Positions 36,779 through 54,367 of a stretch of DNA of 64,000 bases are shown one piece after another; within the stretch, counting starts at the first letter, position 1, and each line of letters begins with the position of its first letter. Below the pieces are notes generated by a model, which made no database searches, was not told where the DNA came from, and saw only the letters and a program-made list of their open reading frames with translations. The translations under genes were made by a program, and so were the position numbers. The stretch is from Oscillospiraceae bacterium (GTDB lineage: Bacteria; Bacillota; Clostridia; Oscillospirales; Oscillospiraceae): NCBI GenBank assembly GCA_910575505.1, contig CAJTFK010000003.1, forward strand, positions 124,001-188,000. The letters run 5' to 3'.

Positions 36779-36791
36779 GGAGAATGAAGCT

Positions 36792-37982: not shown

Positions 37983-37993
37983 GAGGTACCGCC

Positions 37994-38929
37994 ATGCCTG
38001 AACGCATTGTGATCGCCCTGGGCGGCAACGCCTTGGGCAAGAACCTCCCGGAACAGATGGCCGCCGTGAAGCACACGGCCAGGGCCATCGTGGACCTGAT
38101 CGAGGGAGGCTGGGAGGTGGTGGTCTCCCACGGCAACGGCCCCCAGGTGGGCATGATTAACATTGCCATGACCACCCTCTCCCGGGAAGATCCCACCCAT
38201 CCCATGGCCCCCATGTCCGTCTGCACGGCCATGAGTCAGGGGTATATCGGCTATGACCTTCAGAACGCCCTGCGGGAGGAGCTGCTGGACCGGGGCATCA
38301 TCAAGCCCGTTTCCACCATCCTGACCCAGGTGGAGGTGGACCCGGAGGACCCCGCCTTCCAGAACCCCACGAAGCCCATCGGGACCTTTATGACCGAGGC
38401 CGAGGCGGAGGAAATGCGCCGCCGGGGCAACGCCGTCATGGAGGACGCAGGCCGGGGCTGGCGGCGGTGCGTGGCCTCTCCCCTGCCCAAGTCCATCATT
38501 GAGATCGACACCGTCCGGGCTCTGGTGGAGGCAGGACAGGTGGTGGTGGCCGCCGGCGGCGGCGGCATCCCGGTCTATAAGACCGAGGGCCACCATCTGA
38601 AGGGTGCGGGCGCGGTCATCGACAAGGACTTTGCCTCGGAGCTGCTGGCAGAGGAGCTGGACGCGGATGTGCTCATCATCCTGACCGCCGTGGAAAAAGT
38701 CGCCGTGAACTTCGGCAGGCCGGATCAGAAATGGCTGGATCACATGACTCCGGAGGAGGCCCGGCGCTATGCCGCCGAAGGCCAGTTCGCCCCCGGCTCC
38801 ATGCTGCCCAAGGTCCAGGCGGCCCTGAAATTTGCCGAGTCCCGGCCTGGCCGCCGCGCCCTCATCACCCTGCTGGAAAAGGCAGAGGCCGGCGTGGCCG
38901 GAAAGACCGGCACCGTGATTTCTCAATAA
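37994..38929 (+). CDS. yqeA: Carbamate kinase
   Basis: 311 residues. ALGGNALGKN at the N-terminus, SHGNGPQVGMI, VASPLPKSI, VVVAAGGGGIPV and VIDKDFASELLAEEL are all carbamate-kinase marks. It converts carbamoyl phosphate and ADP to ATP, CO2 and ammonia, giving the operon its energy yield. It follows ygeW closely and ends the operon; a terminator is at 39065-39104. Confidence 0.95.
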   Translation: MPERIVIALGGNALGKNLPEQMAAVKHTARAIVDLIEGGWEVVVSHGNGPQVGMINIAMTTLSREDPTHPMAPMSVCTAMSQGYIGYDLQNALREELLDRGIIKPVSTILTQVEVDPEDPAFQNPTKPIGTFMTEAEAEEMRRRGNAVMEDAGRGWRRCVASPLPKSIIEIDTVRALVEAGQVVVAAGGGGIPVYKTEGHHLKGAGAVIDKDFASELLAEELDADVLIILTAVEKVAVNFGRPDQKWLDHMTPEEARRYAAEGQFAPGSMLPKVQAALKFAESRPGRRALITLLEKAEAGVAGKTGTVISQ

Positions 38930-39514: not shown

Positions 39515-39700
39515 TCCAGGCGCGGCGCAGAGTCAGGAAAACGGGCCCCGCTTTTGCCCTTTTCCAGCCGCGTGGAACCGGCCTGCTCAAGCACCCGACT
39601 CCAGGAGCGGCGCAGAGTCAGGAAAAACGGGCCCCGCTTTTGCCCTTTTCCGTCCGTGTGGGACCGGCCTGCTCAAGCGCCCGACTCCAGGCGCGGCGCT
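39515..39700. repeat. Tandem 85-86 bp repeat, 2.2 copies
   Basis: Unit starts with TCCAGG at 39515, 39600 and 39686 (periods 85 and 86). Copies share CGGCGCAGAGTCAGGAAAA, CGGGCCCCGCTTTTGCCCTT and CCGGCCTGCTCAAGC. The third copy stops after about 14 bases at the end of the VOC gene. Non-coding. Confidence 0.9.
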
Positions 39701-40052
39701 AAAAGGATTTCTGCATGATGTGGATGGCGAAACCGCCGAACTCGCCGGAGAGGTAGACGTTTTTAATGCGCCCGGCTTCGTCATAGGCGGCGGTGTCCAT
39801 GTTGAAGGAAAAGCCTTTGGCTTTCAGCTCCTCCATGGCGGCGGCAAGGTCCGGGGTCCGCATGGCGATGTGCCCGTTGGTTCCCAGGAAGGGGGCCTTC
39901 ATGCACTCAAAATAAGGTCCGGCAAACTCAGACTTCTGGCCGTGGCGGGGCTCCAAGCTGAACAGGCCGCTGAGGAGCTCCGCCAGCTTCAGGGCCTCGT
40001 CGGCATTGGCCGTATTGACGCCGATGTGTTCCAGCTCAAATTTGCAGCTCAT
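39699..40052 (-). CDS. VOC (glyoxalase/bleomycin-resistance fold) family protein
   Basis: 117 residues, one VOC unit pair. ELEHIGVNTANADEALKLAELL opens the fold; His 9, with NGHIAMRTPDLAAAMEELKAKG and a C-terminal GGFAIHIMQKSF, gives likely metal ligands. Similar domains are found next to or fused with KDPG-type aldolases in Firmicutes. Last gene of the nine-gene operon; perhaps a lyase or isomerase step in its pathway (inference). Confidence 0.8.
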   Translation of the reverse strand: MSCKFELEHIGVNTANADEALKLAELLSGLFSLEPRHGQKSEFAGPYFECMKAPFLGTNGHIAMRTPDLAAAMEELKAKGFSFNMDTAAYDEAGRIKNVYLSGEFGGFAIHIMQKSF

Positions 40053-40064
40053 CAGACGCCCCCC

Positions 40065-41225
40065 TTATTTCATCTGGGCGGCGGTGGGATTGTACAGGCC
40101 CACGGTCTCCCGCTTCGCGCCCATGACGTCCGCCTCGGTGAAGCTGACATACTTGATGGCCTTCCGGGTGAAGGCGGCGTAGGTCAGGTGGATGCGGCCG
40201 TCGGAGCTTTGCATGATATGGGGGTATTCATACTGCTTGTTGTTGGTTCTGTTCTCATCTCCGACGAAGCCCTCGCCCCGCTCCATCCAGCGGATCATGG
40301 GGAAGGTCAGGCCGCCGTCCTCGCTGAGGGCCACGGCCACCGGGCACCGCAGGCCGGGCCAGGCCGCCTTGCCGGGACTGGGCGCCGGGGTACAGGTGGG
40401 ATTGCAGGCCACGGCGATGCGCCCGCTCTGGAGGCGGATGGCGCTGATGCTGGAGTTGTTGTTGGGCAGAGGGGTGGGCTTGGGCTCAGACCAGGTGTCG
40501 CCCCAGTCCAGGGACTCGCTGCGGTAGATGTTGGCCGCCTCCCGGTCCCGCATGAAGGCCACCAGATGGCCGTTCTCCAGCTCCACCACGTTGGCGTGGA
40601 CACGGCCATGGCTGTTGGGCATATCCACCTGCCGCCAGGTCTTCCCCTGATCCTCGGAAATCTGGAAGGCGGTGGGGTCGCCGGAAAGACCGTCCGCAGA
40701 GTCGGTGCACAGCCAGTTGGCGAAAATCCAACGGCCGTTGGACAGCACCTGAATGGCCTGGCGGCAGAAGGTGCCTTCCCTGGGGAACATGGTTTCATAG
40801 GGACCCCAGGTCAGGCCGCCGTCGGTGCTCTTCTGCACCCGGACCTGAGAGGTGAACTGCATGTTGTCCTTGCCGGCCTCCCGGTCCTTCTGGGCGGTGT
40901 ACATAGCCCAGATGGCCTCATCGGGCCCGTAGAACAGAGAGGGGTTCTGCTCGCTGCGGGCAGGGTCGCCGGAGATGTCCACAGGCTCCGTCCAGCGGTC
41001 CGCTCCCTTGGGCAGACGGGCGCAGACGATATGGACGTCGGCGCTGCCCTCATAGGTGCCGGCGAACCAGCAGCACACCAGGTCCCCATTTGGCAGCTCC
41101 AGTGTAGCAGGGGAGTGGCAGGTGGGATGAACGCCGGGCGGGATGACCGCCTCCACGGTGCCCATCTCCAGATTCTGATAGAGAACGCCGTCATACGTCA
41201 GGCCGGGGAGAACAGGATAATCCAT
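40065..41225 (-). CDS. Sialidase-like BNR-repeat protein (intracellular)
   Basis: 386 residues with four Asp-box repeats (S-x-D-x-G-x-T-W type): STDGGLTWGPY, SEDQGKTWRQV, SLDWGDTWSEP and SEDGGLTFPMI, spaced as in a six-bladed propeller. An early Arg-containing strand (HSPATLELPNGDLVCCWFAG) is also typical. There is no signal peptide, so it should act in the cytosol, unlike secreted sialidases. In this operon it could hydrolyse or isomerise an imported acidic glycoside (inference). Twelve bases upstream of the VOC gene. Confidence 0.8.
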   Translation of the reverse strand: MDYPVLPGLTYDGVLYQNLEMGTVEAVIPPGVHPTCHSPATLELPNGDLVCCWFAGTYEGSADVHIVCARLPKGADRWTEPVDISGDPARSEQNPSLFYGPDEAIWAMYTAQKDREAGKDNMQFTSQVRVQKSTDGGLTWGPYETMFPREGTFCRQAIQVLSNGRWIFANWLCTDSADGLSGDPTAFQISEDQGKTWRQVDMPNSHGRVHANVVELENGHLVAFMRDREAANIYRSESLDWGDTWSEPKPTPLPNNNSSISAIRLQSGRIAVACNPTCTPAPSPGKAAWPGLRCPVAVALSEDGGLTFPMIRWMERGEGFVGDENRTNNKQYEYPHIMQSSDGRIHLTYAAFTRKAIKYVSFTEADVMGAKRETVGLYNPTAAQMK

Positions 41226-41369
41226 GATACATGTTCCTTTCTATGGAAATTTTCCTCACAGCCGGAGCGGAGAAGCTCCGGCCGGGGCGGCGGCAAAAAG
41301 GCGGAACGGCCCGCTGGGCCGTTCCGCCCGCCGGTTTCGCAGGGGATGCGGTGATTGCTATTGGAGCAC

Positions 41370-43352
41370 TCAGGCCGCCTTTGCGGTCTTTTTCTTCCGG
41401 GCGGTGTTCAGGACGAGCATGGCGACGCCCAGGACCACGCCCACAAGGGAGGTCATGGTCTCCGGAGTGATGAGGCAGATCGCCGCCGCGAACAGCAGCA
41501 CCCGTTCCAACACGCTCATCTCCGTGCTGAAATAGCCGGAAACCACGGTAGCCAGGAAGAAGGTGCCCACCAGCAGCATGGCAGCGCCGATGGCGATTTC
41601 CACAGCGGTGCCCTGGAGCAGAATGGCGGGATTGTATACGAAGACAAAGGGCACCATGAAGCCCACCATAGAGAAGAGGAAGCCCTTCACGCCGGTCTTC
41701 ATGGCGTTGCCGTCGGCAATGCCCGCCGCCGTGTAGGATGCCACGCACACAGGCGGGGTGATCTGAGCCATGATGCCGTAATAGAACACGAACATGTTGG
41801 CGCAGAGGTTGGCAGTGGCGTCCGCCATGCCGCTGGCAATCAGGATGGGACGGATGCAGGGCACGAACAGGATAACGCCCACCAGATACGCGGCCACCGT
41901 GGGCAGAGCCATGCCCAGCAGCATGCAGCCCACCATGGCAATCAGCATGGCGATGAAGAGCTTGTCGGTGCCAAGACCCGAGATGACGCCGGAGAGGTTG
42001 GTGGCCAGAGCGGTCTGGCCCGTCACCACGTTGATGATGATGCCGCAGGCCGCGGTGGGAATGGCGATTTCCGCCGCCTGCTTCGCGCCGTCCATGCAGC
42101 AGTTCCAGATGCCCTTCAGGTCCACAAAGTCCTTTTTGTCATTGATAAAGTAGCTGATGACGTCGCACACCAGACAGGAGAAGATGCCCATGGTGCCGGC
42201 CCGCATCAGAGACGCGCCCCGGACGATAAAGACCACCAGAATGATGGCGGGCAGCAGCAGATAGAGACGGGGAAGGATCTTCCGCTCCACCTTGATGGTG
42301 GTGTCCACCTTGCCGTCCAGACGGCTGGAGCGCTTGGCGGCCAGCCGGTCCACCAGGATGAACACAGCGAAATAGTACGCCACGGCGGGGATGATGGCGG
42401 AAGCGGCAACCTTGCCGTAGGAGATGCCCAGCATCTCCGCCATGATGAAGGCACCCACGCCCATGATGGGGGGCATGACCTGGCCGCCGGTGGAGGCCAC
42501 AGCCTCAATGGCGGCGGCTTCCTCGGGCTCATAGCCCACCTTCTTCATCATGGGAATGGTCATGACGCCGGTGGTGGCCACGTTGGCCACGGCGGAGCCG
42601 GAGATCATGCCCATGAGGCCGGAGGAGATGACGGCGGCTTTCGCCGGGCCGCCGGAACCCTTGTTGGAGGCCTTCATGCCGATATCAATCAGCAGCTGGC
42701 CGCCGCCGAAGGCGGAGAAGAAGGCGCCGAAGACAATGAAGTAGAACAGGCTGTTGGCCGACGTTTGCAGCGGGGAACCGAAGACGCCGGAGGTGCCCAT
42801 GGTCATGCCCTCGGTGAACTGCTTGAGCATCTGAGCCGCGGCCTTGCCCCGGGTATAGAGGATACCGGGCAGATAAGGAGAGGCCCAGGCATAAATGATG
42901 AACACCAGAATAAAGCCGAAGAGGATCGCGCCCAGGGTCCGGCGCACCGCCTCCAGCAGGAGGACCACGGTGATGACCATGAATGCGATATCAATTCCGT
43001 CCACCGGGCTGATGAACATGACGTGGTTGATGAGATACTCATACCGGCTCAGTACATACCCGAGCTGGAAGATGATGCAGGCGTAGACCGCTATGTCAAT
43101 CCAGCGGGTCCAGGCGAACTTGTTCAGCTCCGCCGGAGCGGCGGCGTCGCCCTTTTCCTTTTGAATCTTTTTCCGGTATTTCTTGTCCGGGGGATTATAG
43201 AGGTAGACCAGGGTCAGAGCGAACAACAGATGAATGGGGGCCTGGAGCATTGTGGCGAACTGCTTGACCAGCGCAAGGTATGCCTGGAAAATGACCATTG
43301 CCACTGTCAGCACGATCGCCGCCCATTTGCGCCAATCGAAATTCTTTCCCAT
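41370..43352 (-). CDS. TRAP transporter fused permease (4TM/12TM type)
   Basis: 660 residues from ATG 43352, behind GAAGGAGGGG. The N-terminal four helices are fused to a 12-helix DctM-like part. Typical segments: GKAAAQMLKQFTEGMTMGTSG, SANSLFYFIVFGAFFSAFGG, MMKKVGYEPEEAAAIEAVAS, MPPIMGVGAFIMAE and LGMALPTVAAYLVGVILFVP. Works with the TAXI binding protein encoded just upstream to import an organic anion, driven by an ion gradient. A terminator between the two genes probably sets the ratio of binding protein to permease. Confidence 0.93.
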   Translation of the reverse strand: MGKNFDWRKWAAIVLTVAMVIFQAYLALVKQFATMLQAPIHLLFALTLVYLYNPPDKKYRKKIQKEKGDAAAPAELNKFAWTRWIDIAVYACIIFQLGYVLSRYEYLINHVMFISPVDGIDIAFMVITVVLLLEAVRRTLGAILFGFILVFIIYAWASPYLPGILYTRGKAAAQMLKQFTEGMTMGTSGVFGSPLQTSANSLFYFIVFGAFFSAFGGGQLLIDIGMKASNKGSGGPAKAAVISSGLMGMISGSAVANVATTGVMTIPMMKKVGYEPEEAAAIEAVASTGGQVMPPIMGVGAFIMAEMLGISYGKVAASAIIPAVAYYFAVFILVDRLAAKRSSRLDGKVDTTIKVERKILPRLYLLLPAIILVVFIVRGASLMRAGTMGIFSCLVCDVISYFINDKKDFVDLKGIWNCCMDGAKQAAEIAIPTAACGIIINVVTGQTALATNLSGVISGLGTDKLFIAMLIAMVGCMLLGMALPTVAAYLVGVILFVPCIRPILIASGMADATANLCANMFVFYYGIMAQITPPVCVASYTAAGIADGNAMKTGVKGFLFSMVGFMVPFVFVYNPAILLQGTAVEIAIGAAMLLVGTFFLATVVSGYFSTEMSVLERVLLFAAAICLITPETMTSLVGVVLGVAMLVLNTARKKKTAKAA

Positions 43353-43400
43353 TGAGACAACCCCTCCTTCGTTCAGTGATGTATATGGATGTGGGAGAGA

Positions 43401-43445
43401 AAAAGGAAGCGGGGGACGCTGGGAGAGCGCGTCCCCCGCTTCCTT
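43401..43445 (-). terminator. Internal terminator between TAXI and TRAP permease genes
   Basis: 17-bp stem AAGGAAGCGGGGGACGC / GCGTCCCCCGCTTCCTT, 9-base loop, T-run on the minus strand. Placed inside the operon, it likely allows partial readthrough. Confidence 0.85.
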
Positions 43446-43634
43446 ACTTCCGCGCATTGCGCGGCAGTGCGTTGATTAGGGCGTTTCCTGCCGCCCCGCC
43501 GGTTCCCCGCGGGGCGTGATTATTGGGGGCTTTGCTTTGTTTGCTTTGACAGCTCGGGTTTTACCCGCTGTGAGCAGGTTTTTTCGCACGGGCTTTCGTA
43601 CAGGCTTCGTGCGATGGGTAAAAGCGCCGGAAAA

Positions 43635-44744
43635 TCAGCCGTGGGGATAGCCGGCGTCCTCATAGTAGGCGGCGGCGCCGGGATGCAGGGGCACGCCGGT
43701 GAGGGTCATGGTGCCGGCGGTCTGGGGATCGAGATAGCTCATGGCGGACACGGCGCTGGCCAGGTCGTCCTTGTTCTCGCACACGGCCTTGGCCATGTGA
43801 TAGGCAACAGCATAGTCCAGGTCGGCACGGACCAGGATCACCTGCTGAGAGCCGACGGTCTTGATCTCCTCGGTCTGGCCGTTCCAGGTGTTGGCCTCCA
43901 CGGTCACATAATCATAGCCCATTTCCACCATCTTGGCCATGGTCTCCTCGCCCAGCTGGACATCATACATGTCGTGGGTCAGGCAGAGCTCGGTGGTGTT
44001 GGCCTGGCCGGCTCCGATGTGGTCGATGGTCATATCATACAGGTCGTCCTGAAGTCCGCTCTTGATGGCGTCGCCGCCGGTTTTCTCAACCACGCCGCCC
44101 CAGGAAACCACGTCTTCCAGAGTGACGCCCAGCGCCTCGAACACGCGCTCAGCGGCCATTTCACCGAAGGTGCCGTCGGTCTTGCAGACCAGCTTCACGG
44201 GGTACTTCTGGGCCACCAGGTCCTCCATGGTGGTGATGCCGGTGGCGTCCACGAACTTCTGGGTGAACATGACGTTCACGAAGTCATGGCCCAGGCCGCC
44301 GGCGATGGCAGCGATGTCGGGGGTGGGGCCGTTGCCCAGGATGCCCTCTTCATAGCTCCACTTGGCGGGGGCGGAGTTGGACATGACCACGTCGCACTGC
44401 GCGCCGCCGTTGACAATGATGGGCGCGCCCACGCCGCCGGGGGAGGTGGTGGTGATGCTGATATTGGCGCCGGGCATCTCTTTGACCAGAACGGTCTGGA
44501 TGGCGGCGGCGTAGTTGTAGGCGGCGGTGCCGACTTCCTGAGCCGCAAAGGTCAGGTCCACCTTGTCGGGGACGTCGGTGCTCTGCTCGCCGGAGGGCTC
44601 GGTCTGCTGGGCGTCACCGCCGGAGGGCTGGGTCTGCTGGGCGTCGCCGCCGGAGGTCTGGCTGTCGCCGCCCTTGTCTCCGCCGCAGGCGGCCAGGCTC
44701 AGCACCATTGCCAGAGCAAGGATCATAGCAAATACTTTTTTCAT
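43635..44744 (-). CDS. TAXI family TRAP transporter solute-binding lipoprotein
   Basis: 369 residues. Signal MKKVFAMILALAMVLSLAAC with lipobox SLAAC, then a repeated linker (GGDAQQTQPSGGDAQQTEPSG). The TAXI domain shows AAQEVGTAAYNYAAAIQTVL, TTSPGGVGAPIIVNGGAQCDVVM in parts, and LVCKTDGTFGEMAAERVFEALG. TAXI proteins bind small organic anions for TRAP import. The ligand of this one is unknown; the pathway suggests a sugar acid. Confidence 0.93.
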   Translation of the reverse strand: MKKVFAMILALAMVLSLAACGGDKGGDSQTSGGDAQQTQPSGGDAQQTEPSGEQSTDVPDKVDLTFAAQEVGTAAYNYAAAIQTVLVKEMPGANISITTTSPGGVGAPIIVNGGAQCDVVMSNSAPAKWSYEEGILGNGPTPDIAAIAGGLGHDFVNVMFTQKFVDATGITTMEDLVAQKYPVKLVCKTDGTFGEMAAERVFEALGVTLEDVVSWGGVVEKTGGDAIKSGLQDDLYDMTIDHIGAGQANTTELCLTHDMYDVQLGEETMAKMVEMGYDYVTVEANTWNGQTEEIKTVGSQQVILVRADLDYAVAYHMAKAVCENKDDLASAVSAMSYLDPQTAGTMTLTGVPLHPGAAAYYEDAGYPHG

Positions 44745-44862
44745 GTTGTTTCTTCCTTTCGATGATTTGTGGATACCACTTTATTTCTTCACCAGCCAAA
44801 GCCGGTAGAAGCCTTTTTTGTTTTCACGGTCTGCGGAGCTAGAGAAAACTTTCCGCTGTTTC

Positions 44863-45942
44863 TTACTGCTCCGCCTTGGCGTTGGCCATGCGGATGCCGT
44901 AATCCATGGCGTTGACCAGGCTCAGCTCGTTGGCGTGGCCGTCTCCAGCGTGGCCGAAGCCGGTGCCGTGGTCCACGGACGCCCGGATGATGGGCAGACC
45001 CAGGGTGACGTTGACCCCGGCCACGGCGTCCCAGTGGCCCTCGGCCTTGTTGTAGACAAAGCCCTTGACCTTCAGGGGGATGTGGCCCTGGTCGTGGTAC
45101 ATGACCACAACGATGTCATACCAGCCGCCCAGCGCCTTGGAAAATACGGTGTCCGGCGGGGTGGGCTTCTTCTCGGGGATGATGATGCCCTCGGCCATGG
45201 CGGCGTCAATGGCGGGCTGGATTTCCTCGATCTCCTCGGTGCCGAACATGCCGTTCTCGCCGCAGTGGGGGTTCAGTCCGGCCACAGCAATCTTGGGCTC
45301 CTTGATGCCGATGGCCTTGCAGCCCTCATTGGCAATGCGGATCACGTCCAGCACCCGGTCCTTCTTCACCCGGTCGCAGGCCTCCCGCAGGGAGACGTGG
45401 GTGGAGACGTGGACCACCCGGAGCTCCTCATGGGCCAGCATCATGGTGTATTTGCTGGTATGGGTGTAATCGGCATAGATTTCCGTATGTCCCGAATAGT
45501 GGTGGTCCGCCATGTTGATGGCTTCCTTGCTCAGGGCGTTTGTGATGGTGGCGTCCACTTCGCCGGCCATAGCCAGCTCGATGACCTTCTTGACATACTG
45601 GAAGGCCGCTTCGCCGCCCAGCTTGGTGGCCCCCAGGCCGAAGGGCTTGGGATTCTCAGGGTCGTTGGGGATGTCTCCGGCCTTGACAATGCCCATATCA
45701 TAGACGTCAATGACGCCGTACTCATAGCGGGCCTCGCTGACGGCCTGGATGACCCGGATTTTCATGTCGATGCCGGAAACCTTTTTGGCAACCCTGGCGG
45801 CGTACTCCATTGCCGCCACGTCGCCAATCACCAGGGGACGGCAGCGGTCATACACGCTCTTGTCCGCCAGGGCCTTGACGGTGATCTCCGGACCGTTGCC
45901 GAAGGGGTCGCCCATGGTGATGCCCAGAATAGGCTTGTTCAT
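44863..45942 (-). CDS. pdxA2: PdxA-family dehydrogenase (PdxA2-like, 4-phospho-threonate/erythronate dehydrogenase candidate)
   Basis: 359 residues. ITMGDPFGNGPEI begins the PdxA fold; metal-ligand His residues are in HHYSGHTEIYAD, VHVSTHVSLREA and VMYHDQGHIPLKVKG; the end has SVDHGTGFGHAG. PdxA2 enzymes next to DUF1537 kinases oxidise and decarboxylate 4-phospho-D-threonate or erythronate to dihydroxyacetone phosphate (family knowledge). The kinase is in the same operon, so this role fits better than vitamin B6 synthesis. The start follows AAGGAGGTACTGTTATT. Confidence 0.87.
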   Translation of the reverse strand: MNKPILGITMGDPFGNGPEITVKALADKSVYDRCRPLVIGDVAAMEYAARVAKKVSGIDMKIRVIQAVSEARYEYGVIDVYDMGIVKAGDIPNDPENPKPFGLGATKLGGEAAFQYVKKVIELAMAGEVDATITNALSKEAINMADHHYSGHTEIYADYTHTSKYTMMLAHEELRVVHVSTHVSLREACDRVKKDRVLDVIRIANEGCKAIGIKEPKIAVAGLNPHCGENGMFGTEEIEEIQPAIDAAMAEGIIIPEKKPTPPDTVFSKALGGWYDIVVVMYHDQGHIPLKVKGFVYNKAEGHWDAVAGVNVTLGLPIIRASVDHGTGFGHAGDGHANELSLVNAMDYGIRMANAKAEQ

Positions 45943-45985
45943 AATAACAGTACCTCCTTATTTTTTACAGCAATTCCTGTCGATT

Positions 45986-46897
45986 TCAGCAGACGCCTTT
46001 GTCGGCGGTCTCCTTCAGGACGGCTTTCAGCTCCTCAACGCCCTCGTCGCAGAGGTAGTTGAAGGGCCTGCGGCAGTCTCCCACGGGATAGCCCATCATC
46101 GCCACGGCCTTCTTGATGATGGTGTTGGGGTTGCCGAATTTGAACACTCTCTGGAGCGCCACAATGGCGTCCTGGGCCTCCTGGGCCTTCTCCAGGTCTC
46201 CGGCCACGAAGCAGTCATAGATGGAAGCAATGGTCCTGGGCCAGATGTTGGCCCGGCCCGCCACGCCGCCTGCGCCGCCGGCCTTCAGGCAGGGGAGGAT
46301 GTTGCCGTCGTTGCCTGCCAGAACAGCAAAGTCCTTGCCCACGTCCCGGGTAAGGGTGATGTAGGCCTTCAGGTTTTCCAGATCGCCGCTGGAGTCCTTG
46401 GCGCCCATGATGACGTCCACGTCCCGGGCCAGCTTGGCCACGGTTTCGGGCAGCAGCTTGTTGCCGGTGCGGGCGGGGATGTTGTAGAGGACGATGGGGA
46501 TGTTCACGTGCTTGGCCACCTCACAGTAGTGGTCGTAAAGCTCCTTCTGGCTGGCGGCGGCAAAGCTGGGAGTAATGATGGACAGCGCATCCGCGCCCAG
46601 GGCCTCGGCCCGCTTGCTGAGATACACGGTGTCCCGGGTGGAGATGCAGCCGGTGCCGGCGTAGACGGGAATGCGGCCCTTCACCTGGTCCACGGTGGCC
46701 TCCAGGATCTCCTCCTTCTCCTTCATGTCCAGGATGTAGGCTTCGCCATTGGTTCCGAAGGGGAAGATGCCGTGGACGCCGGCGGTGATCTGCCGCTCGA
46801 TCTGGTTGCGGAGCTCGGGGATGTTGACGCTTTCGTCCTCGGGGTTCATGGGAGTGACCACCGGGGGAATGATGCCCTTGATTTCAAGCTGCTTCAT
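45986..46897 (-). CDS. Dihydrodipicolinate synthase (DapA) superfamily lyase
   Basis: 303 residues from ATG 46897 (GAAGGAGCGTGCAAC). Catalytic residues of the class I aldolase family are present: FGTNGEAYIL, Tyr 138 in VLYNIPARTG, Schiff-base Lys 167 in GAKDSSGD. DapA-type lyases cleave or form bonds to pyruvate in keto acids such as KDG, sialic acid or DHDP. In a sugar-acid operon a 2-keto-3-deoxy acid aldolase role is likely; lysine synthesis is unlikely from context. Confidence 0.88.
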   Translation of the reverse strand: MKQLEIKGIIPPVVTPMNPEDESVNIPELRNQIERQITAGVHGIFPFGTNGEAYILDMKEKEEILEATVDQVKGRIPVYAGTGCISTRDTVYLSKRAEALGADALSIITPSFAAASQKELYDHYCEVAKHVNIPIVLYNIPARTGNKLLPETVAKLARDVDVIMGAKDSSGDLENLKAYITLTRDVGKDFAVLAGNDGNILPCLKAGGAGGVAGRANIWPRTIASIYDCFVAGDLEKAQEAQDAIVALQRVFKFGNPNTIIKKAVAMMGYPVGDCRRPFNYLCDEGVEELKAVLKETADKGVC

Positions 46898-46996
46898 GTT
46901 GCACGCTCCTTCTTTTACTAAAATCGACAAACGCTTCCGCCTTTGTCCGGTTTACGTCGTACAGCCGCCCTCCGGCGGAGTCCCTCAGCAGGCGGT

Positions 46997-47773
46997 TCAG
47001 TTCATATATTTACCGCCGTTGACATTGATGGACTCCCCCACGATGAAGGCGGACATCTCCGAGGCAAGGAACACCACCGTGTTCGCCACGTCCTCCCCCC
47101 GGCCCAGACGCCGCAGCGGGATATCCTCCAGCACTTTCTTCCGGTAGTCCTCCGTCCACTGCCGGGACATATCCGTCTCGACAGGGCCGGGACAAACCGC
47201 GTTGACGCGGATTCCGTAGGGAGCCAGGTCATAGGCCAGCTTTTGGGTCAGGGAGTTGATGCCCGCCTTGGAAACCCCGTAGCTCAAGGAGGCGTTGGGA
47301 TGGGCGGTCTTTCCTGCGGTGGAGGACATATTGATGATGCACCCGCTCCGCCGCTCCAGCATGTGGGGCGCCACGCATTTGCAGGCGCAGAATACGCCGG
47401 TCAGATTGACCCGGAGCATCCGGTCCCACTCCTCCAAGGTCAGGTCCTCGAAGCGGCTGCGGCTGTTGACGCCGGCGTTGTTCACCAGGGTGTCAATTTT
47501 GCCGTAAGCCTCCAGGCACGTTTCCGTCAGTCGCTGCGCTGTGGCGCAGTCTCCAATGTCCCCCGCCACAAATTCGCACCGAACGCCCAGGGCCCGGATT
47601 TCATCCCGCAGGTCCCTCAGCGCCTCTTCCCGGGTGCCGTGAATCACCAGATTCGCGCCGTTCCGGGCGAAGGCCAGCGCGGTTGCCCGCCCGATGCCCC
47701 GAGAGGAGCCGGTGATAATCGCGGCCTTTCCCTCCAGAAGTCCCGCCGCACCTTCTATCTGGCAGGACCTCAC
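46997..47773 (-). CDS. SDR family oxidoreductase
   Basis: 258 residues from GTG 47773, overlapping the ADH stop by GTGA. Classical SDR marks: ITGSSRGIGRATALAF (cofactor), NNAGVNSRS, catalytic Ser in NMSSTAGKT, YGVSK (Tyr and Lys), and CPGPVETDMS. Most like FabG-type or sugar dehydrogenases. Probably oxidises a hydroxyl group of the operon's substrate with NAD(P). Confidence 0.88.
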   Translation of the reverse strand: MRSCQIEGAAGLLEGKAAIITGSSRGIGRATALAFARNGANLVIHGTREEALRDLRDEIRALGVRCEFVAGDIGDCATAQRLTETCLEAYGKIDTLVNNAGVNSRSRFEDLTLEEWDRMLRVNLTGVFCACKCVAPHMLERRSGCIINMSSTAGKTAHPNASLSYGVSKAGINSLTQKLAYDLAPYGIRVNAVCPGPVETDMSRQWTEDYRKKVLEDIPLRRLGRGEDVANTVVFLASEMSAFIVGESINVNGGKYMN

Positions 47774-48924
47774 AGGACTTCCTGATAAATTTTCCGGGCG
47801 TCGTCGGGGGTGACCTGGCGCATGTTGTTCACCAGCAGGCGGGTGACCTCCATGCCGGCGGCCACCAGACCCTCCAGGTCCTCCTTGGGCACGCCGAACT
47901 CCGTGAGGCTGGTGGGGATATCCAGGTGCTTGACAATGCCCTCCAGCTTGGCGATGACGGCGGCGCTCTTCTCCTCCAGGGTTTGCGCGTCTCCCCCGAG
48001 GCAGCGGTCATAGGCTCTGGCCAGCAGGGGACGGATGGCGGGCTCGTTAAACCGCATGACGGGAGCCAGCAGTATGGCGTTGGACACGCCGTGGGCAATG
48101 TGGTACTTGCCGCCCAGAGGATAGCTCAGGGCATGGACGGCGGTGGTGCCGGAGGCGGTGATGGCCACGCCGGCGTAGAAGCTGGCCAGGAGCATGGTAT
48201 TCTTGGCGTCCATGGCCTCGGGGTCGTCACAGGCCCGCTCGATATTGTTCAGAATCATATCCAGAGCCTGGAGGGCGAAAAGATCGCTGAAGGGGTTGGC
48301 CTTGTTGCTGGTAAAGCACTCAATGGCATGGGCCAGGGCGTCCACGCCGGTGGCGGCGGCAATCTTCCGGGGCAGCTTTTTAATCATCACCGCGTCCAGA
48401 ATCACATAGTCCGCAATCATCTCCGTGTTGACGATGCCCACCTTCAGCTGCTTTTCCGGCACCGCCACAATGGCGTTGGGCGTGGCCTCGGAGCCGGTGC
48501 CCGCGGTGGTGGGAATCATCAGGGTCTTCATGCACTTTTTGGCCCGGCCGGGTTCATCCAGCAGCTCCTTGATGCCGTATTCATCGGTCATCAGAATGCT
48601 GGCCAGCTTGGCGGTGTCCATGACGCTGCCGCCGCCCACGGCCATGATGAAGTCCGCGCCGCAGGCCTTGCACTGGTCTACCAGCTTCTGGGCCTCCATA
48701 TAGGTGGGTTCCGCCGGCAGATCGTCCAGGACGATGGTCTCCACACCGGTCTGTCTGACCTGGGCCATGGGGAACTCCAGAAGACCCGCGCCCTCGATGC
48801 CCTTGTCGGTGAAGACCGCAAGGCGCTTGACGCCGTTGGCGGCGAAAATCTCGGGAATCCGGCCCAAAGCGTTCTCGCCGCTGTAAACGGCATGGGGCAT
48901 TTTCAGTTCGTACTTTGTCAGCAT
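47770..48924 (-). CDS. Iron-containing alcohol dehydrogenase
   Basis: 384 residues. NAD loop MAVGGGSVMDTAKLAS, then PTTAGTGSEATPNAI, and the metal-binding His residues in GVDALAHAIECF and HALSYPLGGKYHIAHGVSNA. The family handles alcohols, aldehydes and sugar-acid intermediates such as lactaldehyde or tagaturonate-like compounds. Start overlaps the end of the kinase gene by 7 bases; the two are tightly coupled. Confidence 0.92.
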   Translation of the reverse strand: MLTKYELKMPHAVYSGENALGRIPEIFAANGVKRLAVFTDKGIEGAGLLEFPMAQVRQTGVETIVLDDLPAEPTYMEAQKLVDQCKACGADFIMAVGGGSVMDTAKLASILMTDEYGIKELLDEPGRAKKCMKTLMIPTTAGTGSEATPNAIVAVPEKQLKVGIVNTEMIADYVILDAVMIKKLPRKIAAATGVDALAHAIECFTSNKANPFSDLFALQALDMILNNIERACDDPEAMDAKNTMLLASFYAGVAITASGTTAVHALSYPLGGKYHIAHGVSNAILLAPVMRFNEPAIRPLLARAYDRCLGGDAQTLEEKSAAVIAKLEGIVKHLDIPTSLTEFGVPKEDLEGLVAAGMEVTRLLVNNMRQVTPDDARKIYQEVL

Positions 48925-50180
48925 GTTCCGTCCTCCTCGTTGTCCTCTCCGGCGCCCAGGGAGCGGGCCAGCCTGATGAACAGGTCCGGCTCTCCAAAGC
49001 CGCCGGATTTTGAAATGATATGATAGGTTTTCCCGTGGTACACAAAATCAGTCAGAACTGCGCCGGTATCCAGCTCGCAGACCGGACGCAGCTCCGCCAC
49101 GCCTACCGCCCGCATCAGGGCCAGCAGGGCGTCCCCGCCGGTGCAGAGAATCGTGGCGTCCAGGCCGCCGTCCAGCATCCGCTGAACCAGCTGTCCCAGC
49201 TGCCGGGAAATGCGCCGCCGCAGGTCCTCGGTGGTCAGGCCCCGGGCCCGGGCGTAAGGCGTGGTATCGTCCTGCCCTGCCGGGTCGTTCACATCCAGAA
49301 TGAAGCGTTTCTTCGCCGCGGCCTCCGCCAGCCAGGCCCCAACGGCCTGATTGCAGTCCGGGCTGTCCGCCCAGGCGGGCTCCAGCTTCTGCACCGGGTT
49401 CAGGTGAACATGGGGGAATCCCGCCGCCTCCGCCTCGGCCATCTGACGCAGCGTCACCTGGTTCACACTGCCGCAGGCCACAAACAGCGCACGGGGCAGA
49501 GGCGGAACCCTGGGCTTTTCTCCGCTGAGGCCCAGACTGTCCGCCAGCACCGCGCCGAAGCCTGCGCATCCGGCGGAAATCCGCAGCCCAGCCCGGCCCA
49601 GCCTCCGGGCCGTCCGGCGGAGGTCGGTCTCGTTCTCCGCGTCGTAAACCTGAATCCCCGGCGCGTCCATATCCTCCCCGGGCTTCCGGACGCGGACCGG
49701 CGTATCGGTCTGCTCCCCGATGATCTCCGCAACGGCGGAGCGCCGCACCGGCTCAAAGGGGTCCTGGCCAAACACGCTGTCGGCCACCGGCACGCCGTCT
49801 ATGTAGTGCACGCCTCCCCGGGTCAGCCGCCGCAGCTTGGGGAAGGCGGGAAGGAAGGGCATCCGGTCCGCCCCGGCGGCGTCCAGCACCGCGCTGAGCT
49901 CAGCGCCCACGTTGCCCCGGAGGGCGGAGTCTGTCTTCTTATAGATGTACGAAAATCCTGCGTCCAGCGCGGACCGCGCCGCCCGGAACACGACGTCATA
50001 CGCTTCTTTAGGGCTCAGGTGGCGGGTCTCCGCGTCCAGGACCAGAATCTCCGCCTCCGACCGGGAAAAATCATAGGCCGGGTCCGTCACCACACAGGTC
50101 CGGGCTCCCCGGGCGGCGAACTGGACGCCGGAGTCCAACGCCCCGGTAAAGTCATCCGCAATCATCAAGAGTCTGCCCAT
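48918..50180 (-). CDS. Four-carbon acid sugar kinase (DUF1537, DtnK/DenK-like)
   Basis: 420 residues. N-terminal domain motif IADDFTGALDSGVQFA and YKKTDSALRGNVGAEL; C-terminal nucleotide-binding ATILCTGGDALLALM. Characterised relatives phosphorylate D-threonate, D-erythronate or related acids at O4 and pair with PdxA2 dehydrogenases; such a partner is encoded four genes downstream. First gene of the operon; the promoter at 50285-50313 and a dyad at 50203-50218 lie upstream. Confidence 0.9.
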   Translation of the reverse strand: MGRLLMIADDFTGALDSGVQFAARGARTCVVTDPAYDFSRSEAEILVLDAETRHLSPKEAYDVVFRAARSALDAGFSYIYKKTDSALRGNVGAELSAVLDAAGADRMPFLPAFPKLRRLTRGGVHYIDGVPVADSVFGQDPFEPVRRSAVAEIIGEQTDTPVRVRKPGEDMDAPGIQVYDAENETDLRRTARRLGRAGLRISAGCAGFGAVLADSLGLSGEKPRVPPLPRALFVACGSVNQVTLRQMAEAEAAGFPHVHLNPVQKLEPAWADSPDCNQAVGAWLAEAAAKKRFILDVNDPAGQDDTTPYARARGLTTEDLRRRISRQLGQLVQRMLDGGLDATILCTGGDALLALMRAVGVAELRPVCELDTGAVLTDFVYHGKTYHIISKSGGFGEPDLFIRLARSLGAGEDNEEDGTC

Positions 50181-50202
50181 GCGCGCCTCCTTGTGCGTTC
50201 AT

Positions 50203-50218
50203 TTTTGAAACATCAAAA
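50203..50218. promoter_or_regulatory. Candidate operator in the kinase operon leader
   Basis: Perfect dyad TTTTGA-AACA-TCAAAA, 23 bases before the kinase ATG and downstream of the predicted transcription start. Partial matches TTTGAAAC (50341) and TCGAAAC (50402) occur nearby. A repressor or activator site is inferred. Confidence 0.4.
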
Positions 50219-50284
50219 TCGACAGATGTTCCGTTTCGGCGGTTCGCTAAAAAACCCGGCGGTCCGCCGCTGTACTTTGGCATC

Positions 50285-50313
50285 ATTTTATAAAGAACCG
50301 TCTGCAAGTGCAA
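50285..50313 (-). promoter_or_regulatory. Promoter of the nine-gene catabolic operon
   Basis: Minus strand TTGCAC (50313-50308), 17-base spacer, TAAAAT (50290-50285). This is a sigma-70-type layout; no GG/GC -24/-12 pair of a sigma-54 promoter was noticed. Confidence 0.65.
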
Positions 50314-50362
50314 TCATTTTTTTGGTTTTTGGCGTTCACATTTGAAACGCACCGAAAAAACC

Positions 50363-50391
50363 TTGCGATTTTTTTGTTGGTTTGTTATAAT
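50363..50391 (+). promoter_or_regulatory. Promoter of the PrpR_N-type regulator
   Basis: TTGCGA, 17-base spacer, TATAAT (50386-50391), 33 bases before the ATG. Confidence 0.75.
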
Positions 50392-50423
50392 ACGTTTAAT
50401 ATCGAAACACTTTTGGAGGGCCT

Positions 50424-52211
50424 ATGGACAATCCCATCCGCGTTCTGGGCATTGCGCCCTACGAGGGCATGAAAACCCTCATGTCCAATCTGGCGGCGGA
50501 ATACCCGCAGATGGACCTGACTCCGTTCGTGGGCGACAGGGAGCTGGGGCTGGAAATTGCCCGGGCCAATTTCCACGGCAATTACGACGTGGTCATCTCC
50601 CGAGGGGATACCGCCAGCATCCTGCGCCAGAATCTCTCCCTGCCGGTGGTGGAGATTGAGGTCTCCATGTACGATATCCTCTATGCCCTGAAGCTGGCCA
50701 ACGGCCTGGAGGGCAGAACCGCCATTGTTGCCGCCGTCAGCGTTGTGGAGAACGTCCGGGCCCTCTGCGGACTGATGGACTACCGCATCGAGATGTTCTC
50801 CTATGATACAGAGGACGATATTGAGCCGATTCTGCGCCGGCTCCGGCGGGACCGGTGCCAGACCGTCCTCTGCGACACCGTGGCCAACGCCACTGCCAAG
50901 CGCCTGGATATGGATTCCTTCCTCATCACATCCTCCGGGGAGAGCATCCGCCAGGCCTTTGACCAGGCCATTCTGCTGAGCTGGAGCCAGCAGCGCCTGC
51001 GGGACGAAAACCTCTTTTTCCGGGAACTGATTCACGGCCAGATCGGCCAGACGGTGGTGTTCGACGAAAGCGGCACTTTGTACTTCTCCACTCTAGACAA
51101 CCTGACCACGGAGCTGCTGGAGCTGCTGCGCCGGGAGCTGCCGGAGTCCTGGAAGGTTCCGGAGCGCCGGGTGGCCCGGACTCTGGGCGGGATGCTGTAC
51201 TCCATCCGCAGCCGGCAGATCCGCTCCGGCAGCCTCTCCTGCGTGGCCTTTTTCGTGGCGGCCCGGCGGACCACCCTCTCCCCCAACCAGGTGGGCGTCC
51301 GCTTCTCCAGCCGCCAGGAGTCCGAGTCCTCCTTTTACGGCAGCATTTTCAGCCTCTTCCAGACCATTGACGATTTGCAGGAGCAGATTGAGCGGATCAA
51401 CCAGAGCCGGGCCCCGGTGCTGGTCTCCGGCGAGGACGGCACCGGCAAGGAATCCATCGTACAGGCCCTGTATCTCCGGAGCTCTCTCCAGAACCATCCC
51501 CTGATTTCCATCAATTGCAGCCTCCTCAACGACAAGAGCTGGGCCTTTCTGCTGGAGCACCACAATTCCCCCCTGACGGACAAGGAAAACACGCTGTATT
51601 TCGCCAGCATCGACGTGCTCTCCGAGGAGCGGATGCGCCAGCTTCTGGCGGCGCTGATGGAGATGGATGTCTGCCGTCAGAACCGGGTTCTGTTCTCCTG
51701 CGTCTGCCAGCCGGACGAGTACATCTCCGCTGCCGGGTCCCTGTTCCTGGACAAGCTCCGCTGCCTGACCCTGTATCTGCCGCCCCTGCGGGCGGCCCCC
51801 CAGCGGATTCCCGCCCTGGTCAATCTCTCCATCGCCCACTTCAGCGCCAACGTGCCCCTTCAGATTCTGGGGGCGGAGCCGGAGGCCGTGGACCTGCTCC
51901 AGCGCTTTCCCTGGCCTCATAATTACACCCAGTTTCAGCGGGTGATGAAAATGCTGGCCGTCACCGCCTCCGGCCAGACCATTACGGCGGCAGCCGTGTC
52001 GGAGGTGCTGAAAACAGAGCGGCACATGGGCACGTTCTCCCTCAGGGCGGAAAATGCCGCCGCCCCTCTGGATTTGAGCCGGACCCTCAGCGAAATTGAC
52101 CAGGACGTGGTTCAGCGTGTGGTGGAGGAAACTGGAGGCAATCAGACCGCCGCCGCCAAACGGCTGGGCATCAGCCGGACCACCCTGTGGCGTCTGCTTC
52201 AGAAGGGATGA
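50424..52211 (+). CDS. PrpR_N-domain transcriptional regulator with degenerate AAA+ and Fis-type HTH
   Basis: 595 residues. Residues about 1-190 match the PrpR_N ligand-sensing domain (IAPYEGMKTLMSNLAAEYPQ, VVISRGDTASILRQ, LPVVEIEVSMYDIL). A linker follows, then an AAA+ module with Walker A VSGEDGTGKESIVQAL (near 335) but no GAFTGA loop; the Walker B strand reads TLYFASIDVL. The C-terminus is a Fis HTH (GNQTAAAKRLGISRTTLWRLL). It probably senses a small acid and controls the divergent operon with the ordinary sigma factor (inference). Confidence 0.88.
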   Translation: MDNPIRVLGIAPYEGMKTLMSNLAAEYPQMDLTPFVGDRELGLEIARANFHGNYDVVISRGDTASILRQNLSLPVVEIEVSMYDILYALKLANGLEGRTAIVAAVSVVENVRALCGLMDYRIEMFSYDTEDDIEPILRRLRRDRCQTVLCDTVANATAKRLDMDSFLITSSGESIRQAFDQAILLSWSQQRLRDENLFFRELIHGQIGQTVVFDESGTLYFSTLDNLTTELLELLRRELPESWKVPERRVARTLGGMLYSIRSRQIRSGSLSCVAFFVAARRTTLSPNQVGVRFSSRQESESSFYGSIFSLFQTIDDLQEQIERINQSRAPVLVSGEDGTGKESIVQALYLRSSLQNHPLISINCSLLNDKSWAFLLEHHNSPLTDKENTLYFASIDVLSEERMRQLLAALMEMDVCRQNRVLFSCVCQPDEYISAAGSLFLDKLRCLTLYLPPLRAAPQRIPALVNLSIAHFSANVPLQILGAEPEAVDLLQRFPWPHNYTQFQRVMKMLAVTASGQTITAAAVSEVLKTERHMGTFSLRAENAAAPLDLSRTLSEIDQDVVQRVVEETGGNQTAAAKRLGISRTTLWRLLQKG

Positions 52212-52490: not shown

Positions 52491-53375
52491 CTATCTGTAA
52501 AATTCGGCGATATAGGCCAGCACATCGTCCCGGCTTCCCTGGAAGGGGCCGGGCGTCTCCATTTTCAGAGAGACCAGGGCGGTGCAGTACAGCAGTGCGT
52601 CCTCAATGCCGGCCCGCTGCCGCTCCGTGATATACCCGGCAAAGGTGGTGTCTCCCCGTCCGGTCCGGCCGGAGAGGTTCCGGGCTTTGATGGGGCAGGT
52701 GTAAATCTCTCTGCCGTCATAGGCCAGCACCTCGGTGTTGTGGGTAATCAGAACCTCCCTGGCCCCCCAGCTGTGGAGAAGCCTGGCCGCCTCAGCCCGG
52801 TCAGTGAGGCCGGTGAGAATCTCCGCCTCGGCGGCGTCGGTTTTCAGGTAGTCGATGCAGGGCAGGCATTCCTTTTTCTCCGCCCAGTCGTGGAAGGCCA
52901 TGGTCTTGTCCGGCTCCACGTGGCGCAGCAGGCACTGTACATCCACGGCCACTTTGCCGTGCTTTGCCGCCTCGGCGAAGAGGGCCCCGTCAAAATCCCC
53001 GTAGACCAGACCGGCGAAATGGTAGATGGCGGCGTCCACATCCGGCAATTCCTCGAAGCGGAAGGGGTCGCAGACCCCCATGGAGGTGCAGGAGCGCTTT
53101 TCCTTATCGGCGGTGAAATACTGATTGCGGATGGAGCAGGTGGCCGCCGAAGGGCTCCAATACACATCCGCCCCGGAGCCCGCGAAACGCGCCTCCACGT
53201 CGGCGTCCGCCGGATTCAGCTTGGTAAACAGGGCGGTTTTATTCCCGCTCTTCGCCGCCGCGAAGCCGGAGGCCACCACCGCGCCCCCCACTTCCTTCCG
53301 CTGGTTTCCCTGGTAGTCGATGTTGTGGTCCAGGGAGACCGGCCCAATCACCAGGACGTCATACTGTTTTTTCAT
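52491..53375 (-). CDS. PfkB family carbohydrate kinase
   Basis: 294 residues from ATG 53375 (GAGAGGAACGAAT). N-terminal VLVIGPVSLDHNIDYQG, substrate strand KEVGGAVVASGFAAAKSG; C-terminal LSGRTGRGDTTFAGYITER holds the catalytic Asp, with Arg in place of the second Gly/Ala of the common GAGD motif. Family members phosphorylate sugars or nucleosides (ribokinase, fructokinase, adenosine kinase types). Isolated gene; substrate unknown. Confidence 0.88.
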   Translation of the reverse strand: MKKQYDVLVIGPVSLDHNIDYQGNQRKEVGGAVVASGFAAAKSGNKTALFTKLNPADADVEARFAGSGADVYWSPSAATCSIRNQYFTADKEKRSCTSMGVCDPFRFEELPDVDAAIYHFAGLVYGDFDGALFAEAAKHGKVAVDVQCLLRHVEPDKTMAFHDWAEKKECLPCIDYLKTDAAEAEILTGLTDRAEAARLLHSWGAREVLITHNTEVLAYDGREIYTCPIKARNLSGRTGRGDTTFAGYITERQRAGIEDALLYCTALVSLKMETPGPFQGSRDDVLAYIAEFYR

Positions 53376-54328: not shown

Positions 54329-54367
54329 AAAACGTCCGTGGCCCAACGCAGGGTCACGGGCGTTTTT
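54329..54367 (+). terminator. Attenuator terminator upstream of ilvB
   Basis: 12-bp outer stem AAAACGTCCGTG / CACGGGCGTTTT (one T-G pair) extended by GCCC/GGGT, 6-base loop, T-run at 54363-54367. It lies between the leader peptide and ilvB (ATG 54420). An upstream dyad GCGGCGAAGCCGC (54299-54311) and following CAGCGG could take part in an alternative fold. Confidence 0.85.

Follow-up and report, generated by a model that had tools for sequence, protein, structure and literature searches.

Closest described systems and the new locus

Zhang and colleagues reportedly described in 2016 the catabolism of D-threonate by a DUF1537 kinase (DtnK) and PdxA2. DUF1537-family kinases also take part in catabolic pathways for D-apiose, another sugar of rhamnogalacturonan II (RG-II), while the galactarate/glucarate route employs 2-keto-3-deoxyglucarate aldolase, tartronate-semialdehyde reductase and glycerate kinase. 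The operon presented here occupies the minus strand, from 50180 to 39699, of a 64,000-nucleotide window from an Oscillospiraceae bacterium (the window being the whole stretch of DNA that was analysed; it belongs to contig C3 of a genome of 4.26 Mb). Like the D-threonate system, it combines a kinase and a PdxA-type dehydrogenase in one cluster, and these two proteins have their nearest NCBIfam models there; yet it adds a lyase, an iron-containing alcohol dehydrogenase (Fe-ADH), a sialidase-fold protein (hereafter SIA) and, usually, a VOC protein, and its scores stayed below the equivalog cut-offs. With the D-apiose pathways it would share the handling of an RG-II sugar acid by a DUF1537-family kinase, but with another substrate and other enzymes. 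The likeness to the galactarate/glucarate route lies in a pyruvate-forming aldolase acting on a keto-deoxy diacid, an aldehyde-acid reductase and a kinase, whereas the proposed route is one carbon longer, uses other protein families and closes with a PdxA decarboxylation.

Two further systems are related through single proteins. The catabolism of N-acetylneuraminate (Neu5Ac; sialidase, NanA lyase, YhcH/NanM anomerases) has in common with the operon the sialidase fold, a lyase of the N-acetylneuraminate lyase (NAL) superfamily and sometimes YhcH. It differs in that the operon lyase is not NanA by score, the catalytic Glu of SIA is changed and the operon contains downstream C4-acid enzymes. DapA, the dihydrodipicolinate synthase (DHDPS), shares with the operon lyase its fold, Schiff-base Lys, Tyr and carboxylate-binding Arg; the latter enzyme displays Phe for the relay Tyr and Asn for the second Thr, and the genome has two other dapA genes.

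Gut Clostridia and plant-associated bacteria share the cluster, which probably degrades an acidic plant sugar of seven carbons to pyruvate and an intermediate of glycolysis. The best explanation for the operon as a whole, which we consider evenly poised between right and wrong, is the conversion of a C7 2-keto-3-deoxy diacid, 3-deoxy-D-lyxo-2-heptulosarate (Dha), to pyruvate and dihydroxyacetone phosphate (DHAP) via D-threonate. This would be a widespread acid-sugar pathway assembled from known families and undescribed as far as the open-access literature searched is concerned. The original prediction had likewise spoken of a candidate undescribed pathway, and no account of the gene set or of Dha catabolism appeared among the open-access matches listed, which is weak evidence since subscription papers are mostly outside them.

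All ten genes, i.e. nine in the same direction and a divergent PrpR_N-type regulator, were found at the places and with the families (Pfam, NCBIfam) initially given. Their overlapping or tight spacing was also borne out: kinase and Fe-ADH genes share 7 nt, and those of Fe-ADH and the short-chain dehydrogenase/reductase (SDR) share 4 nt. The features are as follows.

50424-52211, plus strand: divergent PrpR_N / AAA+ / Fis-HTH regulator without GAFTGA loop
50181-50423: divergent control region with palindrome copies, a promoter-like site and a hairpin (consensus matches only)
48918-50180, minus strand: DUF1537 four-carbon acid-sugar kinase (Pfam SBD_N and NBD_C), predicted D-threonate kinase
47770-48924, minus strand: Fe-ADH (Pfam, NCBIfam), predicted tetruronate (2,3-dihydroxy-4-oxobutanoate) reductase
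46997-47773, minus strand: SDR oxidoreductase (Pfam, NCBIfam), accessory, not conserved
45986-46930, minus strand: DapA-type class I aldolase, predicted C7 2-keto-3-deoxy diacid lyase, start probably at about 46897
44863-45942, minus strand: PdxA2-like dehydrogenase, predicted D-threonate 4-phosphate dehydrogenase (decarboxylating to DHAP)
43635-44744, minus strand: TAXI-type TRAP solute-binding lipoprotein (TIGR02122, 105.7 bits, cut-off 84.35)
41370-43457, minus strand: TRAP fused permease (TIGR02123, 527.6 bits, cut-off 320.65), true start probably at about 43352, judging by relatives in loci L017 and L018
40065-41225, minus strand: SIA, BNR_2 sialidase-like, a cytoplasmic sialidase-fold protein with altered active site
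39699-40052, minus strand: VOC protein, free-standing counterpart of a domain that relatives carry joined to KDPG/KHG aldolases

Conservation of the gene set

SIA matches at E <= 1e-3 occurred in 14 of 99 genomes (the bacterium's own, 60 of the same genus and 38 of the same order), and close ones (at least 72% identity) in five, its own and four of the same genus. All four relatives displayed PrpR, kinase, Fe-ADH, DapA, PdxA, TAXI, TRAP, SIA and VOC in one block, while the SDR was absent from three of them and relocated in the fourth. The expected co-occurrence of the nine operon genes thus held for eight in these bearers; it failed for the SDR, and elsewhere the transporter type was swapped. 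SIA was rare within the family, with matches at E <= 1e-40 in 2 of 400 genomes (own included).

A collection of 84,980 species genomes was then scanned with SIA. Of the 154 relatives obtained, the analysis covered the 80 best, and their loci were selected through SIA only. Kinase, Fe-ADH, DapA and PdxA occurred together on the same strand within 9.5 kb of SIA in 65 of these 80 loci. Where at least 9.9 kb of flank was available on both sides, all four core enzymes were present in 34 of 35 loci, L105 being the exception. Ten of the 15 loci short of the full set were on contigs ending less than 5 kb from SIA on at least one side, and in L091 and L102 the kinase was located just past 9.5 kb, at the locus edge. 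Bearers included Faecalibacterium prausnitzii (two strains), Enterocloster, Lacrimispora, Hungatella, Caloramator, Proteiniclasticum, Bacillus canaveralius and B. salacetis. Among the 79 loci with a whole SIA frame called (L079 has none), SIA adjoined the kinase in 49 and Fe-ADH in 49, and DapA adjoined PdxA in 58; Fe-ADH was present in 72 of 81 SIA loci. Since content and neighbourhoods recurred across many genera, the gene set is not a chance assembly. As a loose negative control, six loci of distant sialidase-like proteins (L022-L027) never displayed the set, with one DapA relative and one SDR relative among them.

The remaining genes were more variable. Of the 67 loci in which the four partners all occur, at whatever position, 40 have a CitMHS-type carrier (assigned by PF03600, checked on one member), 20 have TAXI and/or TRAP proteins (one of these also counted among the 40) and four have DctM; in five no carrier was recognised. 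PrpR accompanied 56 of these loci and VOC 40. The SDR, originally counted as part of the set, appeared in only 10 of 81 SIA loci and, at more than 45% identity, in 5 of the 67, and therefore does not belong to it. By contrast, SIA and VOC had been presented as the oddities of the operon: SIA turned out to be a recurrent, although not universal, partner that also occurs in other phyla, and the VOC protein recurs as well.

Two additional observations were made at single loci. In one genome SIA occurs twice, the other copy lying a long way from the operon (L197, G728:C2:3143017-3144132). In L089 a further cluster (12543-20331) lies beside the operon, with an altronate-dehydratase-like protein, a second DapA-type lyase, a second DUF1537 kinase (Pfam), an SDR, YhcH and a 2-hydroxyacid dehydrogenase; by its gene content it is perhaps a sister pathway.

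SIA relatives were also found in 302 plasmid records, mostly from Rhizobium, Sinorhizobium, Pantoea and Agrobacterium. Thirteen plasmid regions were picked, twelve by SIA match and one (Caballeronia) by lyase match, L171-L178 also by tblastn. Similar sets occurred on plasmids of rhizobia, Agrobacterium, Shinella, Roseicitreum, Klebsiella and Caballeronia: a DapA-family lyase, Fe-ADH and PdxA accompanied SIA in 11 of the 13 regions, the exceptions being Pantoea agglomerans and Haladaptatus, and the kinase was seen in nine (regions L174 and L178 stop before the position of the R. etli kinase). Identities of the proteobacterial proteins to those of the window were modest (about 35-41% for SIA, 31% for the R. 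etli lyase), gene order differed, and Opp-type ABC importers were found at some of these sets. The P. agglomerans plasmid region (L171, 6566-10294) displayed a symporter, SIA, YhcH and an SDR but no core; SIA relatives are on 27 Pantoea plasmid records, one of which was inspected.

A control anchored on the lyase (ASCERTAINMENT) covered 391 genomes of the class, 10 of which had matches at E <= 1e-90 (own included), and the surroundings of ten matches outside the window were inspected (L160-L169). The six best (L160-L165) had kinase and PdxA nearby in all cases and Fe-ADH in five, the contig of L165 being 7.4-kb long, while the four lowest-ranking ones (L166-L169), with lyases 42-44% identical to that of the window, had no partner enzymes. 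Only L160 among the six displayed a local SIA, and it is probably from the same genome as L076, hence not independent. The core is therefore composed of lyase, Fe-ADH, kinase and PdxA, with SIA as a frequent but replaceable front end. In its place, SIA-less loci displayed 2-hydroxyacid dehydrogenases (L161, L162, L164), PTE-like proteins (L164), an amidohydrolase (L162) or an FAD dehydrogenase with YhcH (L163), and in L103 an enolase-superfamily protein adjoined SIA. In L165, a single anecdote, a pectate lyase and a glycosidase of an MGH1-like Pfam family adjoined kinase, PdxA and lyase.

Two other neighbours deserve mention. A fumarate-reductase-like FAD protein accompanied SIA or the core lyase in L095 (7322-8905), L102 (8438-9955) and L163 (8000-9517). 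Cytoplasmic-looking esterase-like proteins were encoded in operons L033, L063, L081, L083, L091 and L099 (PHB-esterase-like by weak matches; BD-FAE in L033 and L081), hinting that some bearers may take up an ester of the substrate.

The DapA-type lyase

DHDPS joins pyruvate and a C4 semialdehyde acid into a C7 diacid, and its equivalent of Arg154 holds the carboxylate of the C4 unit. As announced by the original prediction, the operon lyase has kept the catalytic Schiff-base Lys178 and Tyr149; together with Arg154, Thr60, Asn61 and Phe123, both were invariant across a 24-row alignment. Phe123 occupies the position of the relay tyrosine, which we take to be Tyr107 of E. coli DHDPS and which both housekeeping DapA copies of the genome retain. 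On the DHDPS model TIGR00674 the lyase reached 222.0 bits, above the cut-off of 206.15 (333 and 324 bits for the two other copies), and the second-best NCBIfam model was another C7-diacid aldolase (211 bits, cut-off 397). The top entries of the Foldseek and VIA lists were DHDPS/NAL only, although other families remain possible. In the light of DHDPS chemistry, a conserved Arg154 and a lost relay tyrosine fit the reverse cleavage of a C7 diacid, and the operon lyase quite probably forms pyruvate. A C7 diacid is slightly favoured as its substrate.

Kinase, PdxA and Fe-ADH

The best NCBIfam model for the kinase was D-threonate kinase (NF047819; 171.4 bits, cut-off 450), followed by 3-oxo-tetronate kinase (93 bits), and kinases of three relatives reached 162, 221 and 282 bits on the former. 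PdxA passed the cut-off of TIGR00557 (295.2 against 290.35) but not that of D-threonate 4-phosphate dehydrogenase (NF002891; 298 against 583); its solved relatives include a D-threonate 4-phosphate dehydrogenase (6e85). In Caballeronia kinase and PdxA were fused into one protein of 768 residues, a sign of sequential action. PdxJ was found in none of five bearer genomes (own and four relatives), while the control search was positive in 4 of 14 known genomes, E. coli included; vitamin B6 synthesis by the DXP route is thus unlikely to be the role of PdxA. Nearest models, fusion and lack of PdxJ all agree with the initial proposal of an acid-sugar pathway ending in a D-threonate-type kinase and PdxA, and these two enzymes very probably lead to DHAP.

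That proposal had further supposed that the lyase cleaves an acid longer than C4, for example a C7 2-keto-3-deoxy acid, and that the resulting tetrose is oxidised to a C4 acid. Pyruvate-forming cleavage of a C7 2-keto-3-deoxy acid remained the best reading, but the oxidation found no support, no aldehyde dehydrogenase being among the twelve commonest neighbour clusters. We preferred a reductive route because reduction of a tetruronate by Fe-ADH requires no aldehyde dehydrogenase and yields D-threonate directly; on balance, Fe-ADH appears to work in the reductive direction.

SIA, YhcH and the VOC protein

SIA is a propeller of the GH33 fold, where the catalytic Glu pairs with a Tyr nucleophile. 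Only sialidase-type entries were near the top of the Foldseek and VIA lists, although other families remain possible. The predicted lack of a signal peptide was confirmed: the maximal 15-residue mean hydropathy in the first 40 residues was 0.95 when the window's SIA and 79 related proteins, each cut back to the conserved start, were taken together, compared with an average of 2.15 for 26 TAXI proteins. According to HMM alignments, His210 replaces the catalytic Glu; this His was invariant in a 25-row alignment and was present in 13 of 13 proteins, that of the window included. By motif reading, an invariant His37 would take the place of the first Arg of the RIP motif. R226 was HMM-aligned to a GH33 Arg, whereas R293, Y334 (nucleophile) and D63 (acid/base) were assigned by motif only; these three were invariant. 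That SIA hydrolyses a bound or cyclic form of the substrate comes just short of an even balance.

YhcH-family genes were recorded in 8 of 80 loci (as a sequence cluster, one member Pfam-checked) and also in L021, L163, L171 and L172. According to PMC8141875, E. coli YhcH provides the Neu5Ac aldolase with its substrate, a cyclic ulosonate, in open form, and gives no stimulation of the cleavage of 2-keto-3-deoxyxylonate, which is largely open. YhcH beside the lyase therefore suggests a ring-forming ulosonic substrate.

The VOC assignment was upheld, although the protein scored only 22.2 bits on Pfam Glyoxalase_4 (cut-off 27) and its assignment depends more on aldolase-fused relatives. Matches to the domain, 25 in all, came from 20 of 120 genomes (own included); among 11 inspected, seven were fused to an aldolase-like N-terminal part and four stood alone. 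KDPG/KHG aldolase (PF01081) was confirmed in all three fusions tested (L118, L123 and L130, i.e. including a partial copy in the genome itself). These KDPG/KHG aldolase-like proteins with a C-terminal VOC domain are those of L130 (G000:C19:26258-26593), L112, L115, L118, L123, L127 and L128.

Proposed pathway

The steps below, their substrate and their directions are proposals built on gene content, conservation, families, active-site residues and fold. TAXI-TRAP would import the acid, a role that CitMHS-type, DctPQM, SSS, MFS or Opp-type ABC carriers may hold in relatives. In the cytoplasm, SIA would free or open a cyclic or bound form, alongside YhcH in some genomes, and VOC may assist on the same keto acid. 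The lyase would then split the open C7 diacid into pyruvate and the C4 aldehyde-acid D-threuronate, the aldehyde of which would be turned by Fe-ADH into D-threonate. Phosphorylation by the DUF1537 kinase would give D-threonate 4-phosphate, and oxidation and decarboxylation by the PdxA2-like enzyme DHAP and CO2. The pathway would be NAD-balanced as far as pyruvate and DHAP.

The identity of the C7 diacid with Dha is put forward tentatively. A Fischer projection drawn by hand showed that 3-deoxy-D-lyxo-2-heptulosarate cut between C3 and C4 gives D-threuronate, and its reduction D-threonate; the D-lyxo stereochemistry at C5/C6 agrees with the nearest model of the kinase, itself below cut-off. According to PMC12168206, Dha and 3-deoxy-D-manno-octulosonate (Kdo) are known in plants exclusively from RG-II, and PMC6811678 mentions the release of Dha from RG-II by GH143. 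Three other substrates were rejected by reasoning only: quinate/shikimate (suggested by the esterases), as retro-aldol cleavage of dehydroquinate gives no C4 acid; Kdo, from which the lyase would yield arabinose and no C4 acid; and keto-deoxyglucarate, which yields a C3 unit and leaves PdxA unneeded.

In its most complete form, which is rather doubtful, the proposal gives gut Clostridia, Faecalibacterium and Oscillibacter among them, a Dha pathway whose five enzyme families are also present in rhizobia and agrobacteria. SIA would act first in it as a new cytoplasmic sialidase-fold enzyme with a His/His/Tyr site, and the lyase would reverse the aldol step of lysine biosynthesis on a hydroxylated analogue. 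If true, it would close the gap between the release of Dha from RG-II by GH143 and central metabolism and point to a gut and rhizosphere food chain based on a rare pectin sugar. It would also make a testable set of markers out of five families with misleading automatic names (dapA, pdxA, 'exo-alpha-sialidase', iron-ADH and four-carbon acid sugar kinase).

Several results weigh against this Dha pathway. Kinase, PdxA and Fe-ADH are all under the equivalog cut-offs for the named activities. The carboxylate-binding arginine is shared by the housekeeping DapA copies, so that it is consistent with a diacid but no proof of one; moreover, the R. etli lyase lacks it and displays a DHDPS-like Thr-Thr/Tyr pattern, and the Caballeronia lyase has Lys there. 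SIA was found without the core in L093 (only a 23% Fe-ADH match), L095 (only an opposite-strand Fe-ADH) and L105 (no core gene), and also in L171 and L182. Conversely, SIA was lacking in stretches L161-L165 and, at E <= 1e-10, from the whole genomes of L161-L164, that of L165 having only a distant relative on another contig. Front-end genes also differ from locus to locus, so that more than one precursor may enter the core. No link of the gene set to RG-II was shown: no RG-II glycosidase was present among the typed neighbours (typing covered recurrent clusters and selected genes only), and the L165 glycosidase had no significant solved relative. The set also occurs in Roseicitreum, a marine-sediment isolate. 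Finally, Dha is listed in Hibiscus beverages in PMC9960968, and may accordingly occur outside RG-II.

Alternative explanations

The alternative that survives best, although unlikely, is that the core degrades several C7 keto-diacids, with SIA acting not as a glycosidase but as a lactonase, anomerase or lyase, and with a natural precursor that depends on the lineage. The front-end genes do vary round one core (dehydrogenases, enolase superfamily, PTE-like, amidohydrolase, esterases), so that several precursors may feed it, and His replaces sialidase residues in SIA. Such an explanation, however, leaves the near-constant pairing of SIA and core in gut Clostridia unaccounted for, and the present data do not separate it from the favoured one.

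Two others are improbable, and to the same degree. A C7 2-keto-3-deoxy mono-acid (heptulosonate) could be split into pyruvate and a tetrose, the latter being oxidised to a C4 acid, phosphorylated and decarboxylated. The logic of lyase, kinase and PdxA would be identical, and oxidation of the tetrose to a lactone might be the work of SDR or Fe-ADH. Yet aldehyde dehydrogenases are missing from the commonest neighbour clusters, as mentioned above, the SDR is rare, and the lyase keeps the arginine that binds a distal carboxylate in DHDPS. We know of no obvious natural free heptulosonate substrate, which also counts against it. Alternatively, SIA could split a conjugate into a C4 sugar acid for kinase and PdxA and a 2-keto-3-deoxy acid for lyase and Fe-ADH, with separate fates. 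The frequent SIA-kinase adjacency would suit this, as would the esterases or Opp-type ABC importers of some bearers, able to carry a conjugate. However, the SIA-less loci L161-L164 keep the four other enzymes together, which can thus act as one chain without SIA, and most recognised carriers belong to small-acid families.

A plain D-threonate (or erythronate) utilisation operon with hitchhiking genes is very improbable: kinase and PdxA are both present, and the pair is said to suffice for D-threonate, but lyase and Fe-ADH also accompany them in 34 of 35 well-covered SIA loci, and similar sets occur in Proteobacteria despite a different order. Sialic-acid (Neu5Ac/Kdn-type) catabolism by sialidase and N-acetylneuraminate lyase, evoked by the sialidase fold, the NAL-superfamily lyase and YhcH in some loci, is the least probable, since the lyase reached only 136.8 bits on TIGR00683 and 145.8 on NF003164 (cut-offs 382 and 281), SIA has His at the catalytic Glu position and no signal peptide, and no ManNAc kinase or epimerase was among the typed neighbours.

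Regulator and control region

The GAFTGA motif was found in none of 64 regulators of the loci, and this PrpR_N / AAA+ / Fis-HTH family is probably not sigma-54 dependent, judging by its sequences. A sigma-54 promoter for the operon was likewise discarded, there being no -24/-12 match in 50181-50423. This region displayed an extended -10 promoter-like site for the regulator (plus strand, 50363-50391) and a terminator-like hairpin on the operon strand (minus, 50257-50269), both as consensus matches. It also contained three imperfect TGTTTCA-N3/4-TGAAACA-like palindromes at about 50196-50212, 50332-50350 and 50393-50409, the first two read by eye.

The consensus TGTTTCA-N3-TGAAACA was derived from 52 regulator-operon regions. 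With at most two mismatches, it gave 45 sites in 15.8 kb of 51 regions (at least one in 30 of 51), compared with 26 sites in 893 kb outside, an enrichment that is partly by construction because the motif was derived from those regions. A less circular indication came from comparing coordinates: 10 of the 26 outside sites fall just upstream of the CitMHS carrier or of a separate SIA unit, and carrier and unit would then share this control. Within the window, the exact consensus was not above chance (two matches at three mismatches, 1.2 expected). As a regulon marker in the genome itself the palindrome was rejected as too degenerate (110 matches at up to two mismatches, 38 for the reversed control).

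Neighbouring genes

Past the regulator, translations indicated a PfkB-type sugar kinase (52491-53417, minus strand) and an acetolactate-synthase-like protein (54366-56051, plus strand). The PfkB gene is outside the conserved set, since no match to it occurred in any of the 81 SIA loci. On the other side (34857-38929, plus strand), the translations suggest a YgeY-type peptidase, a deaminase-like protein, a carbamoyltransferase of the YgeW type and a carbamate kinase, which together resemble an anaerobic purine-degradation cluster.

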